A DNA stretch of 36,627 bases from a virus: the IMG/VR virus record IMGVR_UViG_3300046516_000865, positions 1 to 36,627 of that record; one strand, written 5' to 3'. A program made the position numbers and the translations under genes. Below, in pieces: positions 19,462 to 36,627 of this stretch. Each line of letters opens with the position of its first letter. Position 1 is the first letter of the stretch. Under the pieces are notes generated by a model. That model was given only the letters and a program-made list of their open reading frames with translations, was not told where the DNA came from and made no database searches.

Positions 19462-19462
19462 G

Positions 19463-20050
19463 ATGGATGAAATACCGCAATCGTTCCATTGGAGTACCGA
19501 GATTGAGGAAGCCACTCTGTCAATTCTCTGGCATCAACCGCAACGCCTGAAATATTTCCTGCAGGAATGCGATCCGGCCGTCCATTTTCATGAACCGCAT
19601 AGCAAGATTATTTTTGACGCTATCGGGCAAGTCCATCAGGAAGTCGGCCCGGTCAGTTTCGAGGACATGGTTCTTTGTTTACGCGAGTATCGACAGCTTG
19701 ATAATGTAGGTGGTAAAGACAGTTTAAACCGGATTTACGCATTGTATCAGCCAACCGGGTTACCAGACGCTTTTTATAAAACGGATAGCGCCCGAATCGA
19801 TAAAATTTTAAGCCACCATGTTAGTTTGCTTAAAACATATGCTGTCGCTCGCGAGTTTGAACCGCCTAGAGAGGTTCATCAATATCTAGGCGGCAAAGGG
19901 TGCGCCTACAAAAACAAGGCTAAACGTAAAGGTTGGCAAGCTGATTATATCGGCCCAGCTTATGTCCGCGGCGTCAAATACCAGATGAGCCTGAATGTTG
20001 ATCCCCAGGCCGAATTCATCAATGTAAAGCTAGAACCTCCCACCCGATAG
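19463..20050 (+). CDS. Orphan DnaB N-terminal-domain protein
   Basis: A 195-residue protein from ATG 19463. Residues 12-95 (EIEEATLSILWHQPQRLKYF, then FHEPHSKIIFDAI, a PVSFEDMVLCLRE helix and LDNVGGKDSLNRIY) match the helical N-terminal domain of DnaB-type helicases. No RecA-like helicase domain follows; the C-terminus is instead a basic segment (GCAYKNKAKRKGW) and a beta-rich tail. It may dock primase or loader proteins for the separate helicase ATPase encoded next, a split of a normally single protein (inference). Confidence 0.68.
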   Translation: MDEIPQSFHWSTEIEEATLSILWHQPQRLKYFLQECDPAVHFHEPHSKIIFDAIGQVHQEVGPVSFEDMVLCLREYRQLDNVGGKDSLNRIYALYQPTGLPDAFYKTDSARIDKILSHHVSLLKTYAVAREFEPPREVHQYLGGKGCAYKNKAKRKGWQADYIGPAYVRGVKYQMSLNVDPQAEFINVKLEPPTR

Positions 20051-20077
20051 ATTTCGGGATTAGAAAGCAAGGTTTTC

Positions 20078-22243: not shown

Positions 22244-22276
22244 AGTATGATACCAACCTTGGTGCAGGGATTGGCA

Positions 22277-22720
22277 ATGGATTGCCTTCCCACTCTTCAA
22301 ATCATGTCGCAGGAGGTGACGCCCGTTCGTCGGTTTGGTGAAAAGCATTTTCAAATGCTTGTTCAAGCCTATTCCGCTACCCATCATATGGGTAAAGCCA
22401 TGAAGATGACCGGGTTCAGTGCGCAAACATGTTACTCGTATCTGGCCAGGTTCCCTGAAAAATTGGAAGAGTTTAAAAGACTCGTCGAAGCGCCGATGTT
22501 CGCTCGTATCGGTGAGCTAGGACAGGAACAACATGATTGGAGAGCATTTGCATGGTGTTTGGAACGTACTCAACCTGAGAAGTATGCGTTAACTTCTGTC
22601 TCGCGTATCGAGCATTCCGGCTCTGTCGAGCATCAGGTTAAAATGGTTCCTGAAAGCGATCTGCACCGGATTGCCGCTATAACCCGCGAAATAGAATGCG
22701 AGGTTACCCGTGACGATTAA
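22277..22720 (+). CDS. Terminase-small-subunit-like HTH protein
   Basis: A 147-residue protein. ATG 22277 has AGGGA seven bases upstream; in-frame ATGs at 22247 and 22304 are alternatives. The helix-turn-helix is QMLVQAYSATHHMGKAMKMTGF, then SAQTCYSYLARFPE, followed by a helical segment with the motif AFAWCLERTQPEKYAL that is typical of phBC6A51-like phage terminase small subunits (x-W-x-L-E-R-x-x-P-E-x-Y). In phages these proteins bind DNA for packaging; no large terminase gene is in the window, so the role remains inferred. Confidence 0.58.
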   Translation: MDCLPTLQIMSQEVTPVRRFGEKHFQMLVQAYSATHHMGKAMKMTGFSAQTCYSYLARFPEKLEEFKRLVEAPMFARIGELGQEQHDWRAFAWCLERTQPEKYALTSVSRIEHSGSVEHQVKMVPESDLHRIAAITREIECEVTRDD

Positions 22721-22937
22721 GTATAAGTTCGGCCGGTTGCGCGTTATCAAGACCGAGATGCGCCGGGTTAACGAGCAGCATCGGACCTTTGCCTGGTGCC
22801 GGTGCGAGTGTGGTCGGTTATGCTGGTTTCGTCTTGATCATTTAAAGAGCGGGAACACGCAAAGTTGCGGGTGTTTGCGGAGCGATAATTTGCGGTGGGT
22901 GCGCCATCATGCGTGGAAAGGCGCTTCCAGCCATTAA
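22710..22937 (+). CDS. Small zinc-binding phage protein
   Basis: A 75-residue protein starting at GTG 22710 (GAGG upstream), overlapping the preceding stop. FGRLRVIKTEMRRVNEQ, then WCRCECGRLCWFRLDHLKSG and NTQSCGCLRSDN follow the common phage pattern G-R-L-x-V-I ... C-x-C-x-C-G ... L-x-S-G-x-T-x-S-C-G-C-L, a zinc-ribbon DNA-binding motif often found near or inside HNH/AP2 mobile genes. The next gene begins directly after the stop (TAAATG). Confidence 0.68.
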   Translation: MTIKYKFGRLRVIKTEMRRVNEQHRTFAWCRCECGRLCWFRLDHLKSGNTQSCGCLRSDNLRWVRHHAWKGASSH

Positions 22938-25790
22938 ATGGCTCTGACTTTTAATGGTGCGCAGTATTTAACGTTGCCCTCTGCTATTGTTGCTGCGCCC
23001 CCGTTCACTTTTTCATGTTGGTTTAATACCGCGGTCGTTAATTCCGGGAACGCCCTTCAAGGCATTTGTAATAACGGCACTGATAACAGCAGTTTTTTGC
23101 ATTTATTGGTTGCCGGGCCACCAATCCGGTTACGGGCGCAAGCACAACTGACCGGGGTAAGCGGCTCCTCGGCCTTAACCGTTAATGCGCCGGTCGGCAA
23201 TTGGGTTCATGGTGTAGCCGTTTTTACCAGCGCCGCTTCTCGTACCGTATACGTTAACGGTGTCCCGGCTGGTGCTGATGTTACCAGTAAAGTGCCGGTC
23301 GGGTTAAATATCAGCACGCTCGGTGTGCAATTTAACGGGACGGCGACCGCGGTAAACATGTTTAACGGGACAATTGCTTTTGCCGCTATTCATAATATCG
23401 CGTTGACCGGCGCGGATGTAGGTGCTCTTTACAATAACGGCGCGGGTGTTGACCCGGCCTTGGTTCAACCTGCCAATTGCGTTTCCATGTTGTATATGCA
23501 AAGCGCGGCGCCCTACCGGGACGCTATTACCGCCGGGACATGGACGCCAACCGGGTCGCCCACGATTGTTTCAGACCCGTTTGCTTTCGGGCCGGCATTG
23601 GTAACCCCGTTATCGGACCCGGCACAAGCTAACCTGAACGAGAACGGGTTTGATACGTACAGCTACTATCTCCAACCTTGGAAAGCGTACATGGATACCT
23701 GGCCTGGCGCCCGGTTCATGGATGGGCTCGGGGTAAATTTCCGGCCGGGTGGCGGTAACGAGATGGCGACTGCGCGGTTATTGGCGGAAGCTGGTATCAG
23801 CCATGGACGCATCGAGTTCGGATGGTCCGGATTAAGTTATGCCGATGATACCCAGATTGGCGGTGGATCAATCGGTGGATGGACCGCGCAACTAAACGCA
23901 CTTAAAAAGTTCGGCATTAAACCGTTGGTCCTGCTCAATTGCAACTTGGGCGGCATGTGTCCGTTTACCCCGTTAACCCTGACCACAACCGCGGCCTCGG
24001 CTATCGGGGCAACTACCATCACGGTCTCCAGCGTGACCGGTATCGTGCTCGGGAAAACCGGGTTGAGCGGCCAGAAAAGCGGTTATCAAACTTATCCGTT
24101 TGTTATCTCGATTGCCGGTAACGTTTGTACCTTGAGCGCGCCGCTCCTGGTAGCGATTGGGTCCGGGGCAACCGTTAATGCGGTTACTCTCAAATATCAT
24201 CCGCTTTGTACCGGCAGTACGCGCAACTCGTTTAGTGCCGAGACCATGACCGGGTGGGCAACGTACACGCGAACAATCTGCACGTTTACTAGCGGTATCA
24301 TGGGCTCGAATAATTACGATGTTGAAGTCATTAACGAAGACATGACGCCGCTGGATGATAATAATTTTTATTCGCCGGCTAATACCAGTACGGGCGCATT
24401 GACTTATACTTCGACCTTTTACCCGACCTACACACTGAACGGAAATACCGCAGGCGGCAATAAAGATGTCTTGGTGCCGATTACCGTGGATGTGGTAAAA
24501 ACCGAGTTTGTTGGTGTACGTATCATTAACGGGATGAGTAATTTACATCCGCAAGATAACGCGTTTAACACGCCACCGGGGATAACGGCGTTCTCGCGCC
24601 ATAATTATTCTAATCTGAACAGTATCTCGACTTTGAACGGGCTTTACGGGTTATCCAATCCGCCGACTGCGGTTTATAAACCGACTAAACCGCCCGTAAA
24701 CGCGTTAATGGGGTATGACGGTACACCTACTGTACCTCAGACTGCTCCGGCCGGTCCTAACCCTGCCACCGTTACCGCTGGCAGTTTTTTTGTTCCGAAC
24801 TTCGTTTTATCGTGTCCGGAATCGCCGGTTGGTCTCGGGCTTAAACATGAATGGATGTGTACGGACCTGTTGCCGTTCCCAGGCATGTTGGTTGACGGGC
24901 CAACCGGCCAACCGGCTTATCGCGGGTTGCATTGGCGCGGCGGGCTTAACCCGATTACTAATCAGACCGTTGCACTCTGGGAAACCGAGACAAATTGCGA
25001 CCGGAAATCGTGGGTTAACTCGATCATGGTTACCCCGGCGCGCGACAGCGACCCGGCATCGGTAGCGTGCTGGATGTTCATGGGGGCGAAATGTTTGCTC
25101 CGGATGTACGTCTTTTATATCCATAAAGGGATGGGATGCGTGTTCGCCTTTTCGGATCGTAACCCGAACGAGCCGTATGTTTTAAGCATGATACCGGAAT
25201 CGTTCTTTAACGCCCTAGCCGCGAATGGTGGCGTGTTGACAAACGCGATAGCGTCCCAGGTTGGTTCTCAGATAACGTCTCTTGGCCGGTTAACAGGGTT
25301 ATTAACGCCGTACATCGTGCCGGCCAGTTCGTTTGTGGTTACCAATGTCTCGATTCCGACGTTATCGAGTCCGAACCCGTTAGTAATCGAGTTTGTGGGC
25401 GATGGGACCGCCGCGCATCCGGACCTGACACATCTGGATTGTCTGGGCGTGTTCCCGTTCCAGCTTAACCCGACCACGTACGCGCTGATGTATTATGTGG
25501 TTACCAAAGATTGCGCCCATAACTGGAACCGGGTCCCTGGCAACGTGCTCGACCCGCTTAATTACCAGATGCCGGCGGAAACCTACGATATCACGGTCAA
25601 TGGCATCAATTTCTCCAGTAGCGCTCAAGTGATCGCTTACGACCCGTTAACCGACGTTTATCCGGTTGTCACTGTCCAGAGCCGGACAAGCACACAATTG
25701 GTGTTACGGGTTTTAGCAACTGATTACCCGCGTGTCTTGATTATCGGAACAAAGTTTTATGCGCGCCGGAATGTGCGCGAAAGTTTTTAG
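22938..25790 (+). CDS. Giant LamG plus clan GH-A glycoside-hydrolase-like protein
   Basis: A 950-residue protein without signal peptide. Residues 1-215: LamG/concanavalin-like lectin (LTFNGAQYLTLPSA, FTFSCWFNT, WVHGVAVFTS, RTVYVNGVPA, ALYNNGAG). Residues 224-840: a TIM-barrel with the two carboxylates expected in clan GH-A enzymes, acid/base Glu about 467 in VEVINEDM and nucleophile in LWETETN (Trp681-Glu684); HNYS near 552 is a typical active-site strand. A beta-rich insert of the phage-fibre kind (TTTAASAIGATTITVSSVTG) interrupts the barrel near 345-420. Residues about 870-950: an IPT/TIG-like sandwich. It probably binds and cleaves a polysaccharide on the target cell; the substrate is unknown. 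Confidence 0.75.
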   Translation: MALTFNGAQYLTLPSAIVAAPPFTFSCWFNTAVVNSGNALQGICNNGTDNSSFLHLLVAGPPIRLRAQAQLTGVSGSSALTVNAPVGNWVHGVAVFTSAASRTVYVNGVPAGADVTSKVPVGLNISTLGVQFNGTATAVNMFNGTIAFAAIHNIALTGADVGALYNNGAGVDPALVQPANCVSMLYMQSAAPYRDAITAGTWTPTGSPTIVSDPFAFGPALVTPLSDPAQANLNENGFDTYSYYLQPWKAYMDTWPGARFMDGLGVNFRPGGGNEMATARLLAEAGISHGRIEFGWSGLSYADDTQIGGGSIGGWTAQLNALKKFGIKPLVLLNCNLGGMCPFTPLTLTTTAASAIGATTITVSSVTGIVLGKTGLSGQKSGYQTYPFVISIAGNVCTLSAPLLVAIGSGATVNAVTLKYHPLCTGSTRNSFSAETMTGWATYTRTICTFTSGIMGSNNYDVEVINEDMTPLDDNNFYSPANTSTGALTYTSTFYPTYTLNGNTAGGNKDVLVPITVDVVKTEFVGVRIINGMSNLHPQDNAFNTPPGITAFSRHNYSNLNSISTLNGLYGLSNPPTAVYKPTKPPVNALMGYDGTPTVPQTAPAGPNPATVTAGSFFVPNFVLSCPESPVGLGLKHEWMCTDLLPFPGMLVDGPTGQPAYRGLHWRGGLNPITNQTVALWETETNCDRKSWVNSIMVTPARDSDPASVACWMFMGAKCLLRMYVFYIHKGMGCVFAFSDRNPNEPYVLSMIPESFFNALAANGGVLTNAIASQVGSQITSLGRLTGLLTPYIVPASSFVVTNVSIPTLSSPNPLVIEFVGDGTAAHPDLTHLDCLGVFPFQLNPTTYALMYYVVTKDCAHNWNRVPGNVLDPLNYQMPAETYDITVNGINFSSSAQVIAYDPLTDVYPVVTVQSRTSTQLVLRVLATDYPRVLIIGTKFYARRNVRESF

Positions 25791-25794
25791 GGAC

Positions 25795-28700
25795 ATGGCT
25801 AACCCGGTTTACGTTCAAGGCAATCAAGCGCGCACCAACAGCTCAACTACCGGGCCGTGCGCGTTTACATCACCTAATACCGCGCATAATTGTTTGGTGG
25901 TTTTTACTTTCAGCCAGAACGCCGCGATATCGTCTATTGCCGATTCGTTAGGAAACAAATATTACGACCCGCTTGTTAAATCCACTTTTCTAGGCGGATA
26001 TAATGTCACTACATTTGCTTATCGTGCATGGGTTTGTCGTGATTGTTTGCCAGGGTCTAATACTGTTACCGTAACGTTTGCGGGTACATCAACGGCAAAT
26101 GATGTAACGGTGCTGGAATATTCCGGTATACCAATAAGTAGCGACGCCGGGGTAATGTTTACCGGAACTACCGGTGGCGGCACTGCAATTTCAGGTACTC
26201 AGCTTACCACGCAAATACCGAACTTATTTGTGGTGGCCTATGTAAAATCAGCTAGTGCCACTACACCAACCGGGATCTGGACGCAACGCAAAGATTTTTT
26301 TCCGACAACCGGCATATCAGCGCAAGACGCCATGTTGCCGACCGCCAACAGTTATACGGTGGGCGCAACGTTTACGTCAACGACATGGGTTTGTTTAACC
26401 TTGGCGTTTATGTCAGCGTCGTCTTCGGGTACCTTGAATCTCGGGACTAAAGGTGAGGTGCTTTATGATGGGAACGTTGCTACTCCGAGTTATTTCGAGA
26501 CTGTAGCCGGCAACGCGAGTTTATTATCAGCTTGGGACAAAACCCATTGGACCGGTTGGTTTACCACGGTTTCCAATAATGCTTGGGTCGGGGTGGATTG
26601 CGGTGTGCCGGTGCAATTAACTCGGATTCGGTTGGATTCACGCGCTAATTACGAAGATTCATTGATTGGGTCATACATCCAATGCTCGAATACATCGACG
26701 TTCCCGAACGTTGATTTGACCAGTGTTTTGCAGGTGTTGACCCGACCTAATTCCGGTACTTTCAATAACGAGTTTACGGTTAATCTGGGGGGTGCGGCGT
26801 TCCGGTATTACAGGTTTTTAATGTTACCTAATCGTGGTGGGCGTTTGGGCGATTTAGCATTTATCGGGTCGTACGCAACGGGCGCCACAGCACAAGCGGT
26901 GACGCCGGTAGCTAACCCGCCTGGTGGCCATTTTGATTTTGCCACATTGATAACATTATCGTCGTTAACAACAGATGCCCAAATCCGGTACACGCTCGAT
27001 GGCAGCACGCCAACATCTGCGTCAACGCTTTATTCCAACCCGATTCTGTTATCTGCCTCTGGCATATTGAATGCCATAGCTATTTCGCCCAATGTCGTTG
27101 ATAGCGATGTCGTTACATACAATTTTTATGTACAAGGCGAATGGGATACAGACGATTTACTGTTTGATTCCAACCGCAATTATCAGCTTTGGGCGATTGT
27201 TCCGCATTTATTTTACGATCCACCTTCAGGTTACTGGTATTTAACTGGTCACAACTTCGATTCTGCTGATGGGCCAGTCTACTCTTTACCGTATAATTCT
27301 TATCGTTCAAAAGATTTCAAGAATTGGGAATGGCAAAGTGTAATTGCCGGCTTTGATCGGCCACCCGGCACGTTAGATGGGCGCAATACAAGAAATTATG
27401 TTCCGAAAATACTTTATAACGCGCTAAACAATAATTATGTGGCGTGGTCCGGCGATTTTTCGCCTGTAATTAATATAAGGTCTTATGTAAGCGCGTCACC
27501 AAACGGGCCGTTTATTGCAGCTAACACGTACACCAGTTGGAATGGGGCAGATTTCACTGTCCAGAGCGATAGCAATATTTTTTTAGATGATAACGGGGAC
27601 GCTTACCTGCTTAAGGGTGTTTCAAATAATTCGTTGATGGTGATTAAATTATCAGCGGATTACCAGAGTTTAACTAATACGTTCACCTGGTACACCACCG
27701 GGGCCATTGTGGGAGGTGAAGCGTGGACCATGGCTAATTTTAACGATAACTATTTCTTACAATATTCTGGTCAAGTTGCCTGGGGCTCAAGTTTATGCAA
27801 TTACGTAGTTGGTGTCGGTACTCCTATGCCGGTGTCTTGGGGTACTGCTAAAAACCCTTTCCAACCGTTTCCCGGCGGCGTCCCGTCGTCCAACAACAGT
27901 TTTGATACGCAATGCATACAAATTGTTAAAATACCAGGGCGCACCAACAGCTATCTTTATATTGGCGATAGATACAATCTGTCTGGAAACGATTTCAGCG
28001 GTCATAGAATAATTATTCTTCCGGTAACGTTTCCAACGTCAATCACGATGTCGATCAGTTGGTTGCCAACATGGAATCTGGACACCGTTTTTCCGACCAC
28101 CTCCGGCGCTCCGCAATTTCCTTCTAACCTGATAGTGACCGGCACCACTGCCACTTGGGTTAATCATGAACCTAAAGCTCACAACCTGTATCTGGATACC
28201 GCACCGACTAGCGCGTTTAGTTCCGGGGTTAAATCAGATGTGTTACCGCCGGGCGCATCAACGGCGCAAGTAAAGGCACCACAAGCCTTTTACCGTATTC
28301 GTGCCGTTAATTCGTCTGGGACAAGCAGTTCTAATATCGCAAGTGCCGGTATCTCGAAACCGCCGTTATTATATCCAACTGGATTGGATTCAGACGCTAA
28401 CTTGGGACCAACCAGCGGTATTATTCCGGCGGTAACATTTTTAGGCGGGCAAGGTGCCGGTCAAAGCACGCAACTAACTATTACGCGCAACCTGATCAGC
28501 CAGATTAGCGCGGTCCAAACCAAGGTCGGTATCGATCAATCAGCGATTCCGGCGGCATTGGATTACCGGGTCAATAAACGCCCGTTTAAAACCTGGATAG
28601 CCGGATTAGAAGGCTCGCCACAAAGCGATTTATTCGCCGGGACCGGTCGCAACTCGCGTCCGGTCCTGCTTTTCCCGACCGGCGTTGATACCAGCACCAT

Positions 28701-30315
28701 GTTTTTTGGTGTCGTGCCATTAGGAACAATTGTCGGGAACGGGTTAACGATCCGGTTAAAATGGATGGCCGAAACCGCAACTGGCGGCAACGCGTTATGG
28801 TCCGCGGCCATTGAACGGTTAGCCACCGATCAAGACAGCGATTCATTTGACCCGACCGGGGTAACGCTCGATACACCTGACCCGGTGGCCGGCAAACTGG
28901 TGGAATCAGTTATTACTTTGACCGCCATAGACGCGTTAACGCCTGGGAACCCGTACGCGATCCAGGTGCAACGGTTGGGGTCAGATCCATCTGATACCAT
29001 GGTTGGGACCGCTCAACTGCAATTTGTTACTATTGAAAGCGCTGACCCTATGAATGTCCCGACTTTAGCTCAAGCAACTTTATTAAACGATTCATTCGGG
29101 TTTTCGACACATTTCGATCAGGCAGCAGATTCGCAGTTGCAAGCCAACCAATTGATACCCGCTTTGGTACGTACCGGAGCCGGTTGGATACGGGACGATG
29201 TCAATTGGGGTACCGGCACACATACCGGTATCGAAACTGTGCCAGGCGTCTATAACTTTACCAATCTCCAACCGTTTTGGGCAATAGCCGCTAGCCAAGG
29301 GTTAAAATGTTGCGCGGTCATCGGGCCGAACCCGACAGCGTACCCGGCTGATAAATATAACCAGACGGCCATGGTCAATTTTTGTAAAGCGTTGATAACC
29401 CATATGCCGGCCGGGACCGTGCTGGAGATAACCAACGAACCGAATAACGATTATCAATCGTTCTACGGCGCTGCCACTTGGAAAGCGCAACTGGCGGCAT
29501 TAACCAACGCTGTTACCGTGGGCGTACATTCAGTATCGCCATCTACGCAAGTAATCGGGTTAGGGGCGCAAGGTAGCCAGATTACCACCATGATAACCAC
29601 CAATGGCGGTAACCCGGACGGAATCGTTTACCATCCATACGATTTGAACGACAACACCGCCGAACACACTTTTGAACCGCCAGACACAATTTACGAAACC
29701 TGGGTAGCCAATTTGCGGGCGGTAACCAACAAACCGTTATGGGAAACCGAACGGAACTTGGGCGGCGCCAGTGGCGAATATAACGCGGCGTGTTGGAACG
29801 CGCGCCGGATGGTTTTAAGTTACGCGCTCGGGATCGATCACACGTTTTTGTACGATTTTTACGATCAAACCGGTGTACAAACCACGTTAAACAACCCGCT
29901 GTTTGTACCGATGCAATCTTATTACGTGGTACAACGTGTTTTAACACAACTAGCCACGATGCCGCCGACAAACGTTCATTGTACGGTTACTAGCCCGAAT
30001 AGTGCGTTTAACAGCAGTTTATCGAACCTTAAAAGTTTCGTGTTTACCGGGGGAGGGCGCACAGTTGCCGTTATCTGGTTTGGCAACCTGGCACCGGTAA
30101 AAATCATTTTGGAAGATAACCCGATACTGGTCAGCGTAAACAACGTACCGGCGCGAACAGCAACCATATCGTTCCCGCACGGCGCCATGACCGAACCAAT
30201 TCAAGTGTTCGACGTTGTCAGCGGCGATTTGACATTCCGGCCACAAAGCGATTACGGACCAAACGGGTTACTGATGACGGTCACAGACCGGCCGCAATTC
30301 ATCACTATCCAGTAA
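25795..30315 (+). CDS. Giant multidomain glycan-active fibre-like protein
   Basis: A 1506-residue protein; ATG 25795 (five bases after the upstream stop) aligns with the N-termini at 2036 and 7934. Residues: 1-212 shared sandwich module; 216-362 F5/8-type C (discoidin) carbohydrate-binding domain; 369-440 chitobiase-C-like domain (IRYTLDGSTPTSASTLY); 446-750 five-bladed propeller of GH43 type (HLFYDPPSGYWYLTGHN, RSKDFKNWEW, DSNIFLDDNGDAYLLKG); 766-857 FN3-like; 859-1083 homologue of the 228-residue protein at 781-1467; 1092-1400 clan GH-A barrel with Glu1215 (EITNEPNND) and Glu1317/1319 (LWETERN); then a beta-sandwich end. It has no signal peptide. The two hydrolase folds and two binding domains suggest a depolymerase fibre. 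Confidence 0.78.
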   Translation: MANPVYVQGNQARTNSSTTGPCAFTSPNTAHNCLVVFTFSQNAAISSIADSLGNKYYDPLVKSTFLGGYNVTTFAYRAWVCRDCLPGSNTVTVTFAGTSTANDVTVLEYSGIPISSDAGVMFTGTTGGGTAISGTQLTTQIPNLFVVAYVKSASATTPTGIWTQRKDFFPTTGISAQDAMLPTANSYTVGATFTSTTWVCLTLAFMSASSSGTLNLGTKGEVLYDGNVATPSYFETVAGNASLLSAWDKTHWTGWFTTVSNNAWVGVDCGVPVQLTRIRLDSRANYEDSLIGSYIQCSNTSTFPNVDLTSVLQVLTRPNSGTFNNEFTVNLGGAAFRYYRFLMLPNRGGRLGDLAFIGSYATGATAQAVTPVANPPGGHFDFATLITLSSLTTDAQIRYTLDGSTPTSASTLYSNPILLSASGILNAIAISPNVVDSDVVTYNFYVQGEWDTDDLLFDSNRNYQLWAIVPHLFYDPPSGYWYLTGHNFDSADGPVYSLPYNSYRSKDFKNWEWQSVIAGFDRPPGTLDGRNTRNYVPKILYNALNNNYVAWSGDFSPVINIRSYVSASPNGPFIAANTYTSWNGADFTVQSDSNIFLDDNGDAYLLKGVSNNSLMVIKLSADYQSLTNTFTWYTTGAIVGGEAWTMANFNDNYFLQYSGQVAWGSSLCNYVVGVGTPMPVSWGTAKNPFQPFPGGVPSSNNSFDTQCIQIVKIPGRTNSYLYIGDRYNLSGNDFSGHRIIILPVTFPTSITMSISWLPTWNLDTVFPTTSGAPQFPSNLIVTGTTATWVNHEPKAHNLYLDTAPTSAFSSGVKSDVLPPGASTAQVKAPQAFYRIRAVNSSGTSSSNIASAGISKPPLLYPTGLDSDANLGPTSGIIPAVTFLGGQGAGQSTQLTITRNLISQISAVQTKVGIDQSAIPAALDYRVNKRPFKTWIAGLEGSPQSDLFAGTGRNSRPVLLFPTGVDTSTMFFGVVPLGTIVGNGLTIRLKWMAETATGGNALWSAAIERLATDQDSDSFDPTGVTLDTPDPVAGKLVESVITLTAIDALTPGNPYAIQVQRLGSDPSDTMVGTAQLQFVTIESADPMNVPTLAQATLLNDSFGFSTHFDQAADSQLQANQLIPALVRTGAGWIRDDVNWGTGTHTGIETVPGVYNFTNLQPFWAIAASQGLKCCAVIGPNPTAYPADKYNQTAMVNFCKALITHMPAGTVLEITNEPNNDYQSFYGAATWKAQLAALTNAVTVGVHSVSPSTQVIGLGAQGSQITTMITTNGGNPDGIVYHPYDLNDNTAEHTFEPPDTIYETWVANLRAVTNKPLWETERNLGGASGEYNAACWNARRMVLSYALGIDHTFLYDFYDQTGVQTTLNNPLFVPMQSYYVVQRVLTQLATMPPTNVHCTVTSPNSAFNSSLSNLKSFVFTGGGRTVAVIWFGNLAPVKIILEDNPILVSVNNVPARTATISFPHGAMTEPIQVFDVVSGDLTFRPQSDYGPNGLLMTVTDRPQFITIQ

Positions 30316-30328
30316 CTTCTTGATCGCG

Positions 30329-30526
30329 ATGCACAATTTTGGTACATACCACAAATTGAGCGCAGAAGAATTCAAATCATTACGCCACTCGCTAAAGATA
30401 AGTCAACGCGAGCTTGGCGAAATATTGGGCTTAAGCCGGAACACAATCTGGCGCGCCGAAACATTCGGACCAAGCCATAATACCGTGTTGCGCGTTGAAA
30501 AAGCGCAACTCGAAAAAAAGCTTTAA
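30329..30526 (+). CDS. Small XRE-type HTH regulator
   Basis: A 65-residue protein (MHNFGTYHKLSAEEFKSLRH...). ISQRELGEILGLSRNTIWRAE is a clear Cro/C1-type helix-turn-helix; nothing else fits in its length. ATG 30329 is used; a TTG at 30320 is in frame. It lies 14 bases after the fibre gene and about 40 bases before the inverted-repeat site at 30567, so it may repress the T4SS operon through that site (inference). Confidence 0.75.
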   Translation: MHNFGTYHKLSAEEFKSLRHSLKISQRELGEILGLSRNTIWRAETFGPSHNTVLRVEKAQLEKKL

Positions 30527-30566
30527 CTTATTTCATACAAATGATTAAAGATTGTGCTTGATTGAT

Positions 30567-30585
30567 ATGCACAAAAATGTAGCAT
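30567..30585 (+). promoter_or_regulatory. Inverted-repeat operator or RNA hairpin, copy 2
   Basis: ATGC-ACAAAAATGTA-GCAT, sharing 17 identical bases with the site at 12486-12510. Beyond the shared core, the outer stem pair changes from T-A to A-T while keeping pairing. It lies just upstream of the first small gene of the T4SS operon and overlaps a weak promoter-like TTGATT-N16-TAGCAT. Confidence 0.5.
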
Positions 30586-30595
30586 GGTGAACTTA

Positions 30596-30778
30596 ATGGA
30601 ACGAAACCGAATATTTGACGTGAAAGGTCCGGTTGCGCCTGATGTACAACAGATATTGAGTCAGGCAGCAAAGGATAACGTAGCAATCAATAAACTGTTT
30701 GAACGTTACGGGTACAGCCAGCGGGTTAAAACCGTTTTCATGCAACAACAGCAACCAGAACAAGAGATTACACGATGA
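30596..30778 (+). CDS. Small hypothetical protein, start of T4SS operon
   Basis: A 60-residue protein (MERNRIFDVKGPVAPDVQQI...), with two short helices and a Gln-rich tail (FMQQQQPEQEITR). ATG 30596 is preferred (GGTGA upstream) because the in-frame ATG at 30584 lies inside the inverted-repeat site. ATGA overlap with the next gene. No family recognised. Confidence 0.55.
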   Translation: MERNRIFDVKGPVAPDVQQILSQAAKDNVAINKLFERYGYSQRVKTVFMQQQQPEQEITR

Positions 30779-30942
30779 CGAACGAAGAAATAAAAGTTGC
30801 CTATGACGATTGGTTTTTTGAGACGTTCGGGGTACCGGTGACGCACGAATATCCGTTACGATATAGCGATACCGCTATCCAATCGGCGTTTGAAGCAGGA
30901 GTTAAACTAGGAGCAAGCGAGGTAAAACAAACAAATGAGTGA
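30775..30942 (+). CDS. Small hypothetical protein
   Basis: A 55-residue acidic protein (MTNEEIKVAYDDWFFETFGV...), followed by a helix (DTAIQSAFEAGVKLGASE) of a kind often seen in short phage and plasmid proteins. Both ends overlap neighbours (ATGA, ATGAGTGA), which supports it as a real coupled gene. Function unknown. Confidence 0.58.
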   Translation: MTNEEIKVAYDDWFFETFGVPVTHEYPLRYSDTAIQSAFEAGVKLGASEVKQTNE

Positions 30943-31291
30943 CGAAGCAGTAAATCAATTAGGCGAACAACCAGTTAAACAACGGCGACGGCGCAAGAGC
31001 AAGAGTAGCGCTCCGGCGTTTACCGCTATCGAGGCAGCATCTCCGGATGAGGTAACGGCGGCGTTACAGAAACAGACAAGTCGCAAAAGCGAGTTAACAC
31101 GCAAACTTGAAGAGTTGGCTGTTAATGGCGGGTACAAGATTGACGGCGATTTTGACCGGTTAAAACGGGATGTGCTCGCGCTCGGGCGCCAACTTAAACG
31201 CAAGTTTGTGGTCAGCGAAGCGAACGAACCCGGTAAAGTAATCGTGGTTCGGGTTCAGGAGGACGGGAATGCATCTGGTGCTGCTCAATAA
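30935..31291 (+). CDS. Basic hypothetical protein
   Basis: A 118-residue protein. The first 30 residues are very basic and disordered (KQRRRRKSKSSAP). A coiled-coil-like helix follows (AALQKQTSRKSELTRKLEEL), then a charged segment (DFDRLKRDVLALGRQLKRKF) and a final strand (GKVIVVRVQE). The basic tail suggests nucleic-acid binding; it could be an accessory transfer or nucleoid protein. Its end contains the strong Shine-Dalgarno of the next gene. Confidence 0.6.
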   Translation: MSDEAVNQLGEQPVKQRRRRKSKSSAPAFTAIEAASPDEVTAALQKQTSRKSELTRKLEELAVNGGYKIDGDFDRLKRDVLALGRQLKRKFVVSEANEPGKVIVVRVQEDGNASGAAQ

Positions 31292-31553
31292 ACTTTTGAT
31301 GAACCCGGTGCCGTTCCTGGCCTTAGCGCAACAGCTTGGCACTGCAGCCGGGATCATTAACGCAGTCGGGTTAGTGGCAATGTTTGGCGGGTTAGTCGGG
31401 GCGACCATAGCCGCGTTAAGCGAACGGCATGTGGGCGGCGTTAAAACGTCATTGATCATTACCGCGGTAGGCGGACTCGCGTTTGTGATTGCGCAAGCGA
31501 TGTTCGCGGCCGGCGGGCAACAGACCAATATCCAGTTGCAGCCCATAAATTAA
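31269..31553 (+). CDS. VirB2/TrbC-like pilin subunit
   Basis: A 94-residue protein with AGGAGG nine bases before the ATG. It has two hydrophobic helices (AGIINAVGLVAMFGGLVGAT and SLIITAVGGLAFVIAQAMFA) joined by a short polar loop (LSERHVGGVK), the hairpin architecture of VirB2/TrbC pilins; the N-terminal stretch to FLALAQQ may be a leader. It is directly followed by VirB3-like and VirB4-like genes, the usual T4SS order. It lacks a clear long signal sequence, so processing is uncertain. Confidence 0.65.
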   Translation: MHLVLLNKLLMNPVPFLALAQQLGTAAGIINAVGLVAMFGGLVGATIAALSERHVGGVKTSLIITAVGGLAFVIAQAMFAAGGQQTNIQLQPIN

Positions 31554-31558
31554 CCCTT

Positions 31559-31642
31559 ATGGCGTTTCTGATCATAGCGAGCGGTTGGTTGTTATTAACA
31601 CTCTGGATGTATGCCGGAACTGCATTCAAACGACACAAGTAG
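31559..31642 (+). CDS. Possible 27-residue single-span membrane peptide
   Basis: The frame MAFLIIASGWLLLTLWMYAG with a basic end (FKRHK) is almost entirely one transmembrane helix. It starts five bases after the VirB2-like stop and overlaps the next gene by 32 bases. Too short for confidence, but composition and position fit a small T4SS membrane peptide. Confidence 0.3.
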   Translation: MAFLIIASGWLLLTLWMYAGTAFKRHK

Positions 31643-31979
31643 AGAAGCGCGGCCTGGTATAACCATCGGGCCGTTTCTTTTCACCGGTATTGACATGGTG
31701 TTGCTGGTTGGCGGCGCCGCAGCCGGGATATCCATATTCCAGATATTGCGGGCAATAGATATCGATTGGTGGCTGAACATTATAATTAGCGCGCTCCCTC
31801 TGTGCGGTGTGTTTGGGATCGTTTTATTTTTGTTCGGTAAACCGCAGAGTTACGCCGGCGACCTGTTGTTACTATGGATCTGGCGCGCGAAAACAAATTT
31901 GTACATGGCCGGCGGACTCGAGCGCCCGCCGCTTTTATGGTTAGAAACCAAAGTTGATTACCCGAAAGAAACGAAATGA
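31611..31979 (+). CDS. VirB3/TrbD-like membrane protein
   Basis: A 122-residue protein with a short polar N-terminus, two adjacent transmembrane helices (VLLVGGAAAGISIFQIL and LNIIISALPLCGVFGIVLFL), then a cytoplasmic tail (GKPQSYAGDLLLLWIWRAKT). Length, two-helix topology and position between pilin and VirB4-like genes fit VirB3/TrbD, which anchors the VirB4 ATPase at the inner membrane. Sequence motifs of the family are weak, so the call is mainly by topology and gene order. Confidence 0.6.
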   Translation: MPELHSNDTSREARPGITIGPFLFTGIDMVLLVGGAAAGISIFQILRAIDIDWWLNIIISALPLCGVFGIVLFLFGKPQSYAGDLLLLWIWRAKTNLYMAGGLERPPLLWLETKVDYPKETK

Positions 31980-32182
31980 GAAAACCAAAAGTCAACACGG
32001 CATCCGTAGTTCAGAAATGGGCTGATGAACTAAGGGAGGCGGCGGCAGAGTTAGAAGATCAAGCCAAATCGTTGTATCGCGCTGCCGACGCTTTGCAATC
32101 TAAGCCGGTGCCGGTTAAAGGCGTGTTTGTCGGACCACCATCAACCAGGGATCGAGACGGCGATGCAGTTATCCATCCATAA
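31976..32182 (+). CDS. Small coiled-coil protein in T4SS operon
   Basis: A 68-residue protein with ATGA overlap to the VirB3-like gene. Residues 10-45 form an amphipathic helix (VVQKWADELREAAAELEDQA and on), followed by a disordered tail (VGPPSTRDRDGDAVIHP). No family recognised. The 49-base gap to the VirB4-like gene shows no clear regulatory element. Confidence 0.5.
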   Translation: MRKPKVNTASVVQKWADELREAAAELEDQAKSLYRAADALQSKPVPVKGVFVGPPSTRDRDGDAVIHP

Positions 32183-32231
32183 TCTCGGTATGGATCTATC
32201 TAAAACCTGAACTGCTAAGTTATAAATTGTA

Positions 32232-34760
32232 ATGAATTTGCAGGCCCCTAACGGTTACATCGTTGACGGTCACGCGATATTCGGTGACCCGAATTCGGGC
32301 GCGATCATGTCGAAATTCTTCGATGTGACGTTCCCGGATTTAAGTGGGAGCGATGACCAGGCACACATCGATTTAGAAAAGGATTTACGCCTTATCCTGG
32401 GCGCGCTCAAGGAAGACGAGCGGTTACAGGTACAATATTATACAGGAAGTGATTTTGAGCATTCTATCAAACGTTTTGAAGATCAAACGGCGTTATCTGC
32501 TGTTGCTGTTTCTAGCAATGTGCGCTCTGAGTTGGCTAGCCGTTATCGAGCTAGAATGGTTGCTGAAGAATTGATTCAAACCAATGTCCGGTTATGCATT
32601 TCATCCCGGTTACCGGCCCGCAGTTTCGATGAAGTGTTTAAAATTGTGGCGCGCAGTTACGCGCACCGGGAACAATTCTTTAACATGCTCTTAACCTCGT
32701 ATGGAGGCAGCGTTAATGGTCTTGATAACCTCGGGCATTACAATGAGTTGCTCCGATTCTGGTCGCCAGGACAAGCCCGTCAACCTGGCGTTACTGATGT
32801 GGACTGGCTTCGATCAATCGATGAATTGTGCCGCTTCAGTGGATTGGCTCCGCGTCCAGAGTCTACCCATGGGTTCTACATGGACGGTTACTATTTTGGA
32901 ATATTAACGGCTAAAACCATGCCAACCGGTACTTGGACCGGGACCATGGATTCACTTCTGGGGTTAACCATCCCGAATTTGCGCGTGGTCTTAAACATGC
33001 AACCGCTCGGGCTCGATACCGAGATGCAACATGAAGAAGAACGATTCGCTAAACTGGTCAGTAACATTGACCCGCAACATCCATCGTTACAATCTGAGGT
33101 GGGCCTTGATAAACATCGGGACCGGATGCGGCTATTAATGTCCAACAAAGTGTTGCCATTTAAAGCGCAACTGTTGGTAATCGCTTGTGAACGGTCGCCA
33201 GACAAGCTGGATGAAAGAATGGAGGCGTTGAGAGTAGCGCTTGGTAAAACGGGTTGTCAGCCTTTTCAACCAAGTTTACCTACCTCAACGCTTTCCTTCT
33301 TTAATTCGGCTACACCAGGGTACGGACCTTGGAACCGGTACCCGGATTTCTGGCATAAAATGAACGATGCCGTGAACGTCGCTAACATGTGGCCGGTAGC
33401 CAGCACACCAATTGCTGACCTTGATACCGCGGATTGGATTTGTGACGGTGACCTTAACAACCTGATCGGTGGCAAACATTTTGTCGGAGATCAACCGCGC
33501 CATATGCTGGTTGCGGCAACGACGGGCGCCGGTAAAACGGTTACGTTACAAACTTTGATGCTGCAAACCGCTTGGATGTACAAGTTTATTGCGGTCATCG
33601 ATAACGCGGCAAAAGGCGTTAACTGGGAAAAGACTTGTCAAGCCATTGACCCGACCTGCAAAACCATCGTGGTCCGGTCGAATGGCACCCAGACATTTAA
33701 CCCGTTCGATACACACGGCCAACCGTTAACAAACCAACACCTAGCAAGCGCTACGGCGCTATGCCATTTGTTAGTGGGTGTGCATTCCGACCAAGACAAA
33801 GACAAGTTGCGGGTCGCAATCCTGGCTGAGACGATACAAGAAATTTACGGGGTAGCATTCCGCAAATGGCGTAAGAACAACCCGGTGGCATACTTCGATT
33901 TAATCGAGAACAAATATAACGGGACATGGACAACCTTTAATGAAGCCGAATTCCAAAACCAATCATTCGCGACGTGGACCCATGACATGTTCCCAACGCT
34001 CACGGATTTGCAGGATGAACTCCATAGTGCGTCGTTACAAAAAGGGCCACATCAAGAATTGTGCGCTACCCTTGCCAGTTTGCTTAGGCCGTGGCTCAGA
34101 GACGGTATCTACGGGCCAATCGCCGACGGAATATCAAACGTGGATTTGGGTACACGGAGCGTTTCCGATACAACTGATACCAAAGTCGTTCACATTGAGC
34201 TTGGAGAATTGGGCGAATCGGAGTCCGAACTCCGCGCCGTTGCCGGGTTCCTGATAGCGAACGAAATCCGGAATATTATTCAAGGGTTACCGCGAGGGTG
34301 GCGTAAACAGGTTGTTATCGAGGAAATGGTATCGTTCTTGAAGGTGCCAAACGCCGAACAAATATGCGTCGATTACTGGCAAACAATGCGGAAATTTGGG
34401 TGTCAAATGGTGGCTATCTTCCAGAATTATTCCACGTTATTGGAAGCGAGTCCGAAAGTAGCTAAAGCGCTTGTAAGCAACAGTTCGTCGTTATTGTTGT
34501 TACGGAACCATAACGGTGAAGATTTAAAAGAATTAAGTAAATACGTCAAGTTACCCGATGTGGTTATGAACCAGATTCAACGGTTCCCGAAACCGGCTGA
34601 ACTGAAAGGTAAAGATGCCTATGCCGGGTTTGTCTACGCGCAACTGGACGGTGAACAACCCAAATTTACGGTAGGCCGAAACTATATCTCGCACGAGGTC
34701 GAGCGAATAACATCTAGTGGAAAGTTGAATTTAAATGAAATTTCCAATCGCAAAAACTAA
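32232..34760 (+). CDS. virB4: VirB4/TrbE-like T4SS ATPase
   Basis: An 842-residue protein, the normal size for VirB4. The N-terminal ~400 residues are the family-specific part; the C-terminal RecA-like motor has Walker A AATTGAGKTVTLQTL (Lys435) and a Walker B strand ending VVIEEM (Glu697-Glu698) followed by YWQTMRKFGCQMVAIFQN, which corresponds to the VirB4 region around the Arg/Gln sensor. The acidic pair E-E in place of the usual D-E is a variation. It powers pilus assembly and substrate transfer at the inner membrane. It is the anchor for calling 30596-36627 a T4SS operon. Confidence 0.88.
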   Translation: MNLQAPNGYIVDGHAIFGDPNSGAIMSKFFDVTFPDLSGSDDQAHIDLEKDLRLILGALKEDERLQVQYYTGSDFEHSIKRFEDQTALSAVAVSSNVRSELASRYRARMVAEELIQTNVRLCISSRLPARSFDEVFKIVARSYAHREQFFNMLLTSYGGSVNGLDNLGHYNELLRFWSPGQARQPGVTDVDWLRSIDELCRFSGLAPRPESTHGFYMDGYYFGILTAKTMPTGTWTGTMDSLLGLTIPNLRVVLNMQPLGLDTEMQHEEERFAKLVSNIDPQHPSLQSEVGLDKHRDRMRLLMSNKVLPFKAQLLVIACERSPDKLDERMEALRVALGKTGCQPFQPSLPTSTLSFFNSATPGYGPWNRYPDFWHKMNDAVNVANMWPVASTPIADLDTADWICDGDLNNLIGGKHFVGDQPRHMLVAATTGAGKTVTLQTLMLQTAWMYKFIAVIDNAAKGVNWEKTCQAIDPTCKTIVVRSNGTQTFNPFDTHGQPLTNQHLASATALCHLLVGVHSDQDKDKLRVAILAETIQEIYGVAFRKWRKNNPVAYFDLIENKYNGTWTTFNEAEFQNQSFATWTHDMFPTLTDLQDELHSASLQKGPHQELCATLASLLRPWLRDGIYGPIADGISNVDLGTRSVSDTTDTKVVHIELGELGESESELRAVAGFLIANEIRNIIQGLPRGWRKQVVIEEMVSFLKVPNAEQICVDYWQTMRKFGCQMVAIFQNYSTLLEASPKVAKALVSNSSSLLLLRNHNGEDLKELSKYVKLPDVVMNQIQRFPKPAELKGKDAYAGFVYAQLDGEQPKFTVGRNYISHEVERITSSGKLNLNEISNRKN

Positions 34761-35004
34761 AACTTGGATTTCATACATTGATTATAACGAGCGGCAAATT
34801 GGCGACCGAGAATCCGGCGAAGGAATTGTAGTAATGTCTAATAAAGGGATAATGCTGCCAAAAGTTAAGGAAACAAGGGAAGGTGTTTGTTCAATAAGTA
34901 TCTATGACGCACCGATAGCAGGTAACATGCTTTTTCAGTTCTGGCTTTATCCGAATACATTGCTTGAAAAAGGAATACAACTGACAACCCCACCCGCGTT
35001 ATGA
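34735..35004 (+). CDS. Hypothetical protein in T4SS operon
   Basis: An 89-residue, mostly beta protein (MKFPIAKTKTWISYIDYNER..., then GIVVMSNKGIMLPKV and LFQFWLYPNTLLEKG). It overlaps the VirB4-like gene by 26 bases and the lipoprotein gene by ATGA. No signal peptide. Base composition looks more A/T-rich than its neighbours. Function unknown. Confidence 0.55.
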   Translation: MKFPIAKTKTWISYIDYNERQIGDRESGEGIVVMSNKGIMLPKVKETREGVCSISIYDAPIAGNMLFQFWLYPNTLLEKGIQLTTPPAL

Positions 35005-35366
35005 AATGGCTTTTACCTTTATTACTCGTTGGGTGCGCCTCCCCCAAACTCCCTAATAACCAGACGGCTAGTGACCAGTTTTATCGTTTGGGGTACGGCG
35101 AGAAACGGATCGCCCAAAACTTTTATCAACTCGGTGAAGGCGATGCCGTGAAACGTTTGTACTGGGCACAACGCCGTGCCCAAGAAACCGGTGCCAGCCA
35201 TCAACAAGCTGGGGTATCATTGCAAAAGACGTACGTCAATATCCCGGTACCGGCGCACACCGATTCGGACGGGACCGAGATAGAAGCCAGTAACCATGTG
35301 GTGGAAGTGGTGCAACTCTGGAAATCGGTGCCGCATAACGGACGCACACTGAACATCGTTAAATGA
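35001..35366 (+). CDS. T4SS-associated lipoprotein
   Basis: A 121-residue protein with a short lipoprotein signal: MKWLLPLLLVGCAS has lipobox L-V-G-C (Cys12). The mature part is helical at first (SDQFYRLGYGEKRIAQNFYQ, then VKRLYWAQRRAQ) and ends in a beta-rich segment (KTYVNIPVPA, VVEVVQLWKS). Its position suggests an outer-membrane-complex lipoprotein comparable to VirB7 or TrbH, but no family match is claimed. ATGA overlap with the TrbJ-like gene. Confidence 0.68.
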   Translation: MKWLLPLLLVGCASPKLPNNQTASDQFYRLGYGEKRIAQNFYQLGEGDAVKRLYWAQRRAQETGASHQQAGVSLQKTYVNIPVPAHTDSDGTEIEASNHVVEVVQLWKSVPHNGRTLNIVK

Positions 35367-36154
35367 AACCCTGTTTATACGTTCTGTTTGTTCTGGCGTT
35401 AAAAGCGCATGCCGGGTTGCCGGTCATTGATTATAGCCATATTGCCGTCTCGGTCGGGAACGAGGTCGTTAACTTCGCGAAATGGGCTAAGACCGAAGTA
35501 TCGTCGGCACAAACCCAGTTAAACACGTTGCAAAGCTACGAGAACAGCGTGGTGCAACTAGCCCGCATGGGTAACCCGGCGGCGTTACGGTCGTTGCCAG
35601 GTATAAGCACGGTAGCGGAACTGTACGGGACCGGTAAACAGCTCCAATATGATTACGCGAGTTGGCAAGGCTATTTTAACCCGCAACGGTACCAATCGGA
35701 TTTCAACTCTATCCTGACCAGTTATCAACAACCCAATTGGCAAGGGTACACCTACGCGCCGGTTCAAGGCAGTTACCAGTTCGATACTGCCCGCTGGAAC
35801 ATTACAGATGCTGCGCAACAGCAGTTAAAACAACTCGAACAACGCCGGCAAACCCTTGAACAACAACGGGACGCTGCGTTGCAAGCCGTGCAAGCCGGTG
35901 GTGACCAATCAACGGTCCAAAAGAATCACGCCGCATTAGACGGGTTAAACGGTGCTCTGGCCGAACTGGCGTCACAAGAACAATCGGTTTTGCAACAGGT
36001 ACAATTAAAACAACAACAACTCCAATCCGGCCAGAACGTTTATCAAACTGCTATAACCGAACAACGCTTTCAACAATCGAGGGCATCGGTTGACGTGGGG
36101 TTAAACGCGTTACCAATGCAAGCGTACGACACACCGGCGCGATGGGGACGATAA
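35363..36154 (+). CDS. TrbJ/VirB5-like conjugal transfer protein
   Basis: A 263-residue protein with a signal peptide (MKPCLYVLFVLALKAHA|G). The mature N-terminus is helical (VVNFAKWAKTEVSSAQTQLN, then a LQSYENSVVQLARMGN helix) as in TrbJ/VirB5, followed by an aromatic middle (YASWQGYFNPQRYQ) and a very long Gln-rich coiled coil (LKQLEQRRQTLEQQRDAALQ; QSVLQQVQLKQQQLQ). VirB5/TrbJ proteins sit at the pilus tip and in the periplasm. The signal peptide plus coiled coil plus operon position make the call. Confidence 0.75.
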   Translation: MKPCLYVLFVLALKAHAGLPVIDYSHIAVSVGNEVVNFAKWAKTEVSSAQTQLNTLQSYENSVVQLARMGNPAALRSLPGISTVAELYGTGKQLQYDYASWQGYFNPQRYQSDFNSILTSYQQPNWQGYTYAPVQGSYQFDTARWNITDAAQQQLKQLEQRRQTLEQQRDAALQAVQAGGDQSTVQKNHAALDGLNGALAELASQEQSVLQQVQLKQQQLQSGQNVYQTAITEQRFQQSRASVDVGLNALPMQAYDTPARWGR

Positions 36155-36321
36155 TGAGATTATTAATCTGGATAGTGGCAGTTACGATAACGGTTTCAAT
36201 TGTTACTTATTCAATTATCCGGGTTGAACTAGCGCAACAACGCCAGGAAAACAAAGTGTTGATGTACGAAGATTTGAGCCGATTACCAAACGTTGATGCA
36301 CCAGCGAAATGGAATAAATAA
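36154..36321 (+). CDS. Small single-span membrane protein (TrbK-like position)
   Basis: A 55-residue protein: MRLLIWIVAVTITVSIVTYS is one transmembrane helix, then a charged helix (RVELAQQRQENKVLMYEDL). It overlaps the TrbJ-like stop by one base. In IncP-type operons a small TrbK protein (entry exclusion) lies between TrbJ and TrbL; the position matches, but no TrbK lipobox or motif is seen. Confidence 0.5.
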   Translation: MRLLIWIVAVTITVSIVTYSIIRVELAQQRQENKVLMYEDLSRLPNVDAPAKWNK

Positions 36322-36322
36322 T

Positions 36323-36490
36323 ATGACTGAACACGAAACCAAAATGATAGTTGGCGCGTTAATGATGGCTATCGAAGACGGGTTGCATATTAATTATAGG
36401 ATGATTGAAGAGAGAGACGAGCTTGTTATTAGGTTACAGAAACAACTAGTGATAGAGCTTAAGCGTTTCGGTGTCGAAATAACCAAATGA
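36323..36490 (+). CDS. Small hypothetical protein
   Basis: A 55-residue helical protein (MTEHETKMIVGALMMAIEDG...), with a charged coiled-coil second half (ERDELVIRLQKQLVIELKRF). It begins one base after the previous stop and overlaps the TrbL-like gene by ATGA. No signal or family recognised. Confidence 0.5.
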   Translation: MTEHETKMIVGALMMAIEDGLHINYRMIEERDELVIRLQKQLVIELKRFGVEITK

Positions 36491-36627
36491 ACTTTCTCGA
36501 TTTGATACCAGGATTCACCATCGGGGTTCACAACCTCCATTCGGAACTGGTATCAATCGCGTTTGTTCTATGTTTTGCCGGGTTACTGGTGCACGCTTGT
36601 ATAGCGCTGTTTCAAGGCAGCATTCGG
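36487..36627 (+). CDS. VirB6/TrbL-like membrane protein (3' partial)
   Basis: The frame runs off the window after 47 residues. It has a short N-terminus (MNFLDLIPGFTIGVHNLHSE), then a transmembrane helix (LVSIAFVLCFAGLLVHACIA). Start by ATGA overlap. TrbL/VirB6 polytopic proteins follow TrbJ(-K) in conjugation operons, so the call is mainly by position and hydrophobicity. Confidence 0.45.
   Translation, partial: MNFLDLIPGFTIGVHNLHSELVSIAFVLCFAGLLVHACIALFQGSIR

Follow-up and report, generated by a model that had tools for sequence, protein, structure and literature searches.

A predicted conjugation gene block between the terminase genes of a tailed-phage lineage

The 36,627-bp stretch of DNA analyzed here (hereafter, the window) is the complete IMG/VR record IMGVR_UViG_3300046516_000865, a linear viral contig without an end repeat, in which phage-type fibre genes are followed on the same strand by genes resembling those of a type IV secretion system (T4SS). 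By our comparisons, the window very probably comes from a temperate siphovirus genome of ~65 kb, of which it is one fragment, from a lineage that probably infects Verrucomicrobiota and that acquired a conjugation module between its terminase subunits. In a relative, one circular molecule holds both full gene sets, the one for virions and the one for conjugation; this arrangement has been kept over deep divergence, and other relatives show the arrangement without the conjugation block. Somewhat less firmly, we also favour the view that this lineage of tailed phages encodes, and keeps by selection, two complete machines that work separately, one making virions and the other being a self-sufficient MOBF/T4SS conjugation apparatus.

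A circular relative carries virion and conjugation genes

Because the contig stops inside the T4SS operon, the window itself has no genes for capsid, relaxase, or coupling protein, and the comparison with longer relatives carries the argument. A VirB4 search of viral contigs led to G1 (IMGVR_UViG_3300012926_000036, 66,519 bp), which also holds homologues of the window’s Sak4, exonuclease, terminase small subunit (TerS), Gp80, and fibres at ~30 to 60% identity. The terminase large subunit (TerL) of G1 in turn retrieved G2 (IMGVR_UViG_3300012203_000001, a record of 65,084 bp) and G3 (IMGVR_UViG_3300049794_000035, 44.6 kb), while wider searches with TerL and VirB4 added G4 (IMGVR_UViG_3300026319_000014, 33 kb) and G5 (IMGVR_UViG_3300012927_000244, 13.9 kb), respectively, and a coupling-protein search added the locus L037 in IMGVR_UViG_3300028536_000118 (10.5 kb). 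G5 and the greater part of L037 represent G2 recovered from other samples, with G2 regions re-assembled at 99.97 to 100% identity in samples 3300012927 and 3300028536. The final 906 bases of the latter locus (L037:9552-10457) become abruptly unlike G2 within the coupling-protein gene, through either a variant or an assembly error.

The ends of G2 share a 123-bp direct repeat, giving a circle of 64,961 bp, and the join is covered by G5, whose 13,873 bp from sample 3300012927 span Sak4, helicase, integrase, TerS, and VirB4 with 2 mismatches (99.99% identity). Read around the circle, with genes named from their own profile matches or from homology to G1, TerS is followed by VirB2/B3-like genes, VirB4, a single-stranded DNA-binding protein (SSB), a lipoprotein, VirB5-like, TrbL-like, VirB8-like, and VirB9-like genes, and VirB10; then by a second lipoprotein, a ClpB-type AAA protein, the coupling protein, a MOBF relaxase/helicase, TerL, a GH46 enzyme, and the portal; then by a MuF-type protein, protease, major head protein, major tail protein, tape measure, tail hub, and fibre; and finally by the replication module on the opposite strand, helicase, integrase, and methyltransferase, which leads back to TerS. 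G1 is collinear with these modules and has two extras: ahead of the relaxase stands an endonuclease VII gene, and TerL is separated from the portal by a fibre cassette. Loss of TerS from G2 was considered and rejected, as its open reading frame (ORF) is intact and crosses the contig ends. This G2 TerS (L018 from about 4600, continuing at the start of L015) combines an unrelated N-terminus resembling a helix-turn-helix (HTH) with the conserved C-terminal motif IEHSGSVEH...ESEL.R and, on this comparison, has had its DNA-recognition half replaced by domain swapping.

The virion genes of the relatives are recognized by profiles. In G1 these are the major head protein (E = 6e-23), protease (4e-22), tape measure (6e-9), major tail protein (2e-9), and tail assembly protein (2e-33), and in G2 the portal (3e-52) and the MuF-type head protein (3e-13); a tyrosine integrase is encoded in both (integrase profile, 1e-32). 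Of the genes that mark Caudoviricetes, G1 and G2 have TerL, portal, an HK97-type capsid set with protease and major head protein, tail tube, and tape measure, and TerS and fibres are present in the window as well. Judged by their annotated genes, both relatives look complete for a siphovirus set, with TerS, TerL, portal, protease, head, tail, tape measure, tail hub, fibres, and integrase. No plasmid Rep/Par system was recognized among the genes scanned, which covered small ORFs in part, and the sole Par-like match, to a G2 methyltransferase with a fused ParB_N domain, lies below the cut-off. The original prediction, made from the window’s letters, had proposed a conjugative phage-plasmid: the conjugative phage finds strong support in the two gene sets on the circular 65-kb relative, the plasmid does not, and, with an integrase and no recognized Rep/Par, “integrative temperate phage” fits the element better.

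Conjugation genes and a candidate origin of transfer

At the head of the window’s T4SS operon stands a small HTH regulator (30329-30526, + strand, as for all genes of this operon; HTH_31, E = 1e-4, below the Pfam cut-off), which starts 13 bases after the large fibre ORF 25759-30315. It is followed by a VirB2/pilin-like gene (31269-31553), named from its position and two hydrophobic stretches and 57% identical to G1 64777-65040 (E = 5e-26); a VirB3-like gene (31611-31979; 45 to 51% to G1/G2, weak PrgI match with E = 0.14); the VirB4 ATPase (32232-34760; Pfam P-loop_TraG, E = 4e-7; 56 to 62% to G1/G2); a lipoprotein (35001-35366; 53 to 57% to G1/G2); a VirB5/TrbJ-like gene (35363-36154; 47 to 52% to G1/G2, no Pfam match); and a TrbL/VirB6-like gene (36487-36627), identified by translation and alignment with the TrbL-like genes of G1/G2, of which the contig end leaves only the first 47 codons. 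The order of VirB2, VirB3, VirB4, VirB5/TrbJ, and TrbL on one strand, as originally read from the window, holds, as do the coordinates given there. VirB4 is the sole T4SS gene in the window with profile support of its own; for B2, B3, B5, and TrbL, Pfam gave no significant match, and they owe their names to order, topology, and 45 to 62% identity to counterparts in the two longer contigs. The VirB4 of G2, 62% identical to that of the window, matches NCBIfam TraC (E = 2e-22) and the PDB VirB4 structure 4ag5 (E = 2e-5).

The relaxase of G1/G2 consists of a TrwC domain (E = 8e-37; MobF, E = 6e-27) joined to an AAA_30/RecD-type helicase, and both copies retain the histidines of the H-(n)-HxH motif as well as N-terminal tyrosines. 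The coupling protein matches TraG-D_C (E = 5e-9) and is VirD4-like (E = 7e-13), VirB10/TrbI is recognized in G1 (E = 5e-12), and an SSB lies within the conjugation block (E = 1e-23). The genes expected of a conjugative element are distributed as follows: relaxase with catalytic motifs and coupling protein in G1/G2, VirB4 in the window, G1, and G2, and VirB10 in G1. A 107-bp non-coding block immediately precedes the relaxase gene (or, in G1, the endonuclease VII-relaxase pair); it is 78% conserved, folds weakly as DNA (z of -2.7 and -1.1), and is a candidate origin of transfer (oriT). Together, G1 and G2 carry what looks like a complete conjugation set of VirB4, VirB10, positionally assigned B2, B3, B5, B6, B8, and B9, coupling protein, MOBF/TrwC relaxase-helicase, SSB, and the oriT candidate. 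The main genes that the original prediction proposed to seek, namely those for major capsid protein, portal, large terminase, relaxase, coupling protein, and VirB10, were found on the circular relative; VirB11 was not recognized.

The block lies inside the packaging module and has diverged with the phage

In G2 the conjugation block lies between TerS and TerL, and so it does in G1 when the linear record is read as a circle; the window has TerS, then fibres, then the T4SS. TerS abuts TerL in G4 and in the Akkermansia phages Chambord and Chantilly. In G3, the same interval holds a single 210-aa ORF (G3 22268-22900, L020:2268-2900) with two paralogues elsewhere in that contig, which suggests a mobile, homing-type gene occupying the interval that the T4SS block takes in G1 and G2. 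No TrwC match was detected in G3 or G4, nor a VirB4 match in G3, and all-against-all blastp gave none either, with the limit that both contigs may be incomplete. Since the TerLs of G1 and G3 are equally close to that of G2 (80% identity for G3), the gain or loss of the block took place inside a tight clade of TerL sequences.

Comparison of the window, G1, and G2 revealed saturated synonymous sites for nearly all genes, nonsynonymous divergence (dN) of 0.15 to 0.57 in conjugation as well as virion/replication genes, and open frames throughout the genes compared. For most genes of both modules the window is the outlier to G1 and G2 (0.48/0.53 versus 0.67 for VirB5, and 0.51/0.53 versus 0.74 for the gene beside Sak4), with VirB4 being nearly equidistant. 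This pattern fits shared inheritance of both modules and disfavours repeated recent fusion. As virion and conjugation genes diverged together, their linkage reflects neither a chimeric assembly nor a recent co-integration.

Host and known elements

Two lines of similarity point to the host. The nearest isolates by TerL are Akkermansia phages (39, 37, and 34% identity; next best 29%), and the nearest portal is that of Akkermansia phage Chantilly. Among 72,556 PLSDB plasmids, the sole relative of VirB4 (24% identity over 93%) is on plasmid CP007054 of Opitutaceae bacterium TAV5. These two affiliations, Akkermansia for the closest isolated phages and Opitutaceae for the one plasmid relative of VirB4, make a member of the Verrucomicrobiota the probable host. 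The temperate Akkermansia phages Chambord and Chantilly share the order Sak4, exonuclease, DnaB helicase, TerS, TerL and also have an integrase, but they are 30 to 37 kb long, their TerS adjoins TerL, and their annotation lists neither a T4SS nor a relaxase or coupling protein. Akkermansia phage DTMo-2021a, also among the best TerL relatives, is a 31.9-kb record without annotation. Conversely, the TAV5 plasmid, which is MOBF and typed as “mobilizable,” additionally shares VirB8-, VirB10-, and TrbL-like genes and a ClpB-type AAA gene beside the T4SS, but it measures 99.8 kb, shares no virion genes, and has its T4SS genes annotated as hypothetical. On this plasmid (loci L002, L008, and L009) the diverged T4SS type is split into two clusters, and it is apparently an undescribed Verrucomicrobiota mating-pair type without a recognizable VirB11. 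Other MOBF (TrwC/TraI) plasmids, of the F and R388 type and from Runella, Paludisphaera, and Planctomycetes, have relaxases ~27% identical over 94% of the length, and a Runella plasmid has a related relaxase and coupling protein together. They differ in that no virion genes are known there, and the T4SS described here is too diverged for Pfam except for VirB4 and VirB10.

Phage-plasmids, P1-like and others, likewise join phage and plasmid functions. Relaxase or oriT sequences for mobilization by a helper have been described in phage-plasmids, mostly in plasmids that lost virion genes (PMC10879196), and co-integrates of phages with conjugative plasmids have been reported (PMC12977533), whereas here a self-encoded T4SS lies beside a full virion set. 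The “conjugative prophage” phi1207.3 of Streptococcus pyogenes is reported to move in a way that meets the operational definition of conjugation, and its sequence paper mentions neither a T4SS nor a relaxase (PMC4260502); a later paper calls it a temperate bacteriophage in its title (PMC9927172). A 2025 review of T4SSs does not mention phages (PMC12857230). In a collection of 50,697 phage records, neither this VirB4 nor this coupling protein had a match, and the relaxase matched only the helicase parts of two records. An F-type TraC retrieved from the same collection 17 unannotated faecal contigs and one Salmonella genomic island with a conjugation operon. The faecal records, MT835823 and 16 other MT83xxxx entries named “Bacteriophage sp.,” have TraC/VirB4-like genes and may be either contaminants or additional phages with a T4SS. 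In the open literature searched (subscription papers and preprints fell outside this coverage), we found no phage that encodes a complete conjugation machine, and a tailed phage with a complete, self-encoded one is likely to be new.

Alternative explanations

Several points weigh against a self-transmissible phage. All support comes from comparing sequences, and transfer, nicking, and virions are predictions. The capsid, relaxase, and coupling-protein genes lie outside the window and are known from relatives that show ~50 to 60% identity in shared genes. VirB2, 3, 5, 6, 8, and 9 are named from order and topology, with no Pfam match. For the VirB8- and VirB9-like proteins, AlphaFold models built on two-row alignments reached a predicted local distance difference test (pLDDT) of only 38 and 42 and were not used, and an HH comparison of the VirB3/8/9-like proteins with F-type TraL/TraE/TraK gave no match. 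VirB11 was not recognized in the conjugation block, and the element was not found in 84,980 cellular genomes scanned with VirB4 and TerL, its host being inferred from relatives. PDB sequence searches with the VirB9- and TrbL-like profiles also returned no useful match. A ClpB-type AAA protein accompanies this type of T4SS, and that it replaces VirB11 is a guess.

Among the alternatives, the one that survives best, albeit as an unlikely one, is that the T4SS is real and phage-borne but non-conjugative, serving protein secretion, DNA uptake, or the release of phage DNA in the lytic cycle. Its place in the TerS-TerL interval, on the strand of the late genes, would suit such a role (within 1-50 kb of G2, 46.5 kb are coding on that strand versus 2.1 kb on the other). 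However, the T4SS is accompanied by a MOBF relaxase-helicase with catalytic motifs, a coupling protein, and the conserved oriT-like block, and effector or uptake systems usually have no relaxase. It is less probable still that a conjugative plasmid or an integrative and conjugative element captured phage structural genes and fibres, now domesticated, and makes no infectious virions. The complete T4SS and relaxase and the related T4SS on a Verrucomicrobiota plasmid speak for such an origin, but replication/recombination, integrase, terminase, head, tail, and fibre genes are all phage-type, the genes compared are under purifying selection, and the T4SS sits inside a phage packaging module whose backbone also exists without it, with no plasmid Rep/Par among the genes scanned. 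A recent co-integrate of a phage and a conjugative plasmid, for which phage-plasmids offer precedents (PMC12977533), is hardly credible given three diverged genomes with the same linkage and saturated synonymous sites, a total of merely 65 kb, and modules that are interleaved rather than joined end to end. Equally improbable is a chimeric assembly at about 30.3 kb, for which nothing speaks beyond the caution voiced in the original prediction, because the linkage of phage and T4SS genes near 30315 recurs in independent contigs from several samples, one of them circular; both were rejected on G1, G2, G5, and L037.

Gene content of the window

The window opens with tail and fibre genes (1-10141, +), followed by recombination and replication genes (10138-19145, mostly -, and 19331-21139, +), TerS, a short HNH-related ORF, a pair of large fibre genes (22938-30315, +), and the HTH gene and T4SS operon (31269-36627, +), which runs off the contig end. 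The first gene (1-327, +), a tail-associated protein cut at its 5' end by the contig start, is 60% identical to G1 17027-17428 and 51% to G2 43850-44239, both within the tail module. A fibre-associated protein (781-1467, +) shows 54% identity to G1 16313-17023 and likewise to residues 870-1094 of ORF 25759-30315, so its module is also embedded in that 1518-aa fibre. Next come a Gp80-type podophage fibre/head protein (1534-1950, +; PF23140, E = 1e-34; phrog_240, E = 3e-22; 60% to G1), a giant repetitive fibre protein of 1976 aa with a TTG start (1994-7924, +), whose repeats match G1 12371-13888, and a 735-aa fibre protein (7934-10141, +) that has its N-terminal module and internal repeats in common with the giant one. 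Beyond TerS lie a fibre protein with an N-terminal laminin-G/ConA-like lectin domain (22938-25790, +; Laminin_G_3, E = 1e-14; phrog_8510, virion structural, E = 4e-6) and the fibre protein of 1518 aa, counted from the first ATG (25759-30315, +; CHB_HEX_C_1, E = 6e-17; Fn3_assoc, E = 5e-15; 36 to 39% to G1/G2 fibres). Its N-terminal ~220 residues recur in ORFs 1994-7924 (E = 1e-9) and 7934-10141 (E = 3e-8), in agreement with the shared module first noticed, along with the adjoining HTH gene, in the window. The fibre cassette occupies the TerL-portal interval in G1 and G4 and the TerS-T4SS interval in the window; in G2 the GH46 enzyme lies between TerL and portal. G1 additionally encodes a fibre-like protein with a GH30-type glycosidase domain (G1 36365-39136, -; L005:16365-19136; E = 3e-6). 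With their ConA-like and chitobiase-C-like domains and the GH30 domain in G1, these fibres are ordinary virion adhesins or depolymerases. The earlier alternative of a conjugative element with fibres that breach the recipient’s coat is therefore unnecessary, and host surface proteins were excluded as the identity of the giant proteins.

On the minus strand, two adjoining genes (15402-16607) both align to the single G2 exonuclease ORF 56894-58087 of the PD-(D/E)XK type (PDDEXK_1, E = 6e-6 on 16293-16607), next to a DNA methyltransferase (16604-17593; N6_N4_Mtase, E = 2e-50) and a recombination-module gene (17749-18261; 47 to 50% to G1/G2). The latter had been taken for DUF669, for which there is no Pfam match, yet it is conserved beside Sak4 in the relatives too. 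The Sak4-like recombinase itself (18273-19145, -; AAA_24, E = 2e-43; 46 to 50% to G1/G2) precedes, on the plus strand, a DnaB N-terminal-domain protein (19331-20050; DnaB, E = 2e-6), a replicative helicase/primase-type AAA_25 ATPase (20078-21139; Pfam, E = 8e-23; phrog_2597, E = 2e-37), TerS (22247-22720; phrog_4102, E = 4e-10; homologous to TerS of G1, G3, and G4), and the HNH-endonuclease-related ORF (22710-22937; phrog_374, E = 2e-12). Thus, the Gp80, Sak4, and terminase small subunit assignments of the original prediction are confirmed, and its BppU-like domain finds no Pfam match. A DpdA-like protein (13163-13969, -; Pfam, E = 3e-39) suggests 7-deazaguanine modification, that is, phage DNA with modified bases. 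Other observations are a borderline sulfotransferase-family match in the recombination module (14130-14624, -; 27.3 bits against a cut-off of 27), a neighbouring pair of small paralogous ORFs (11438-11990, -; 64% identity over 67 aa), and, in G2, an autotransporter beta-barrel domain within the phage genome (51177-52490, -; L017:11177-12490; Pfam, E = 2e-22).

Two proposed routes of transfer

We propose that in a lysogen, for which an integrase is present, the MOBF relaxase would nick oriT (the candidate 107-bp block), that the strand would be handed by the coupling protein to the T4SS channel, driven by VirB4, and so into a touching cell, and that the integrase would insert the transferred DNA in the recipient. 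On induction, TerS/TerL would package the same genome, which would leave in virions. Two horizontal routes, each independent of the other, would then be available to the element. On this reading, the window’s T4SS-adjacent fibres serve as adhesins of the virion and sit, like the conjugation block, in an insertion hot spot around the terminase genes.

Viruses are customarily set apart from conjugative elements as a different kind of mobile DNA. The known overlaps are phage-plasmids that borrow a helper T4SS, or co-integrates, and a stable lineage with both complete machines would break this division. If the proposal is true, a temperate phage could spread in biofilms or soil aggregates with the donor unkilled, could reach receptor-less cells, and could still disperse as virions under host stress. 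This opens to test the timing of each route and the effect of the T4SS on the cells that a phage genome enters, and it bears on the rules by which metagenomic sequences are assigned to viruses or plasmids.

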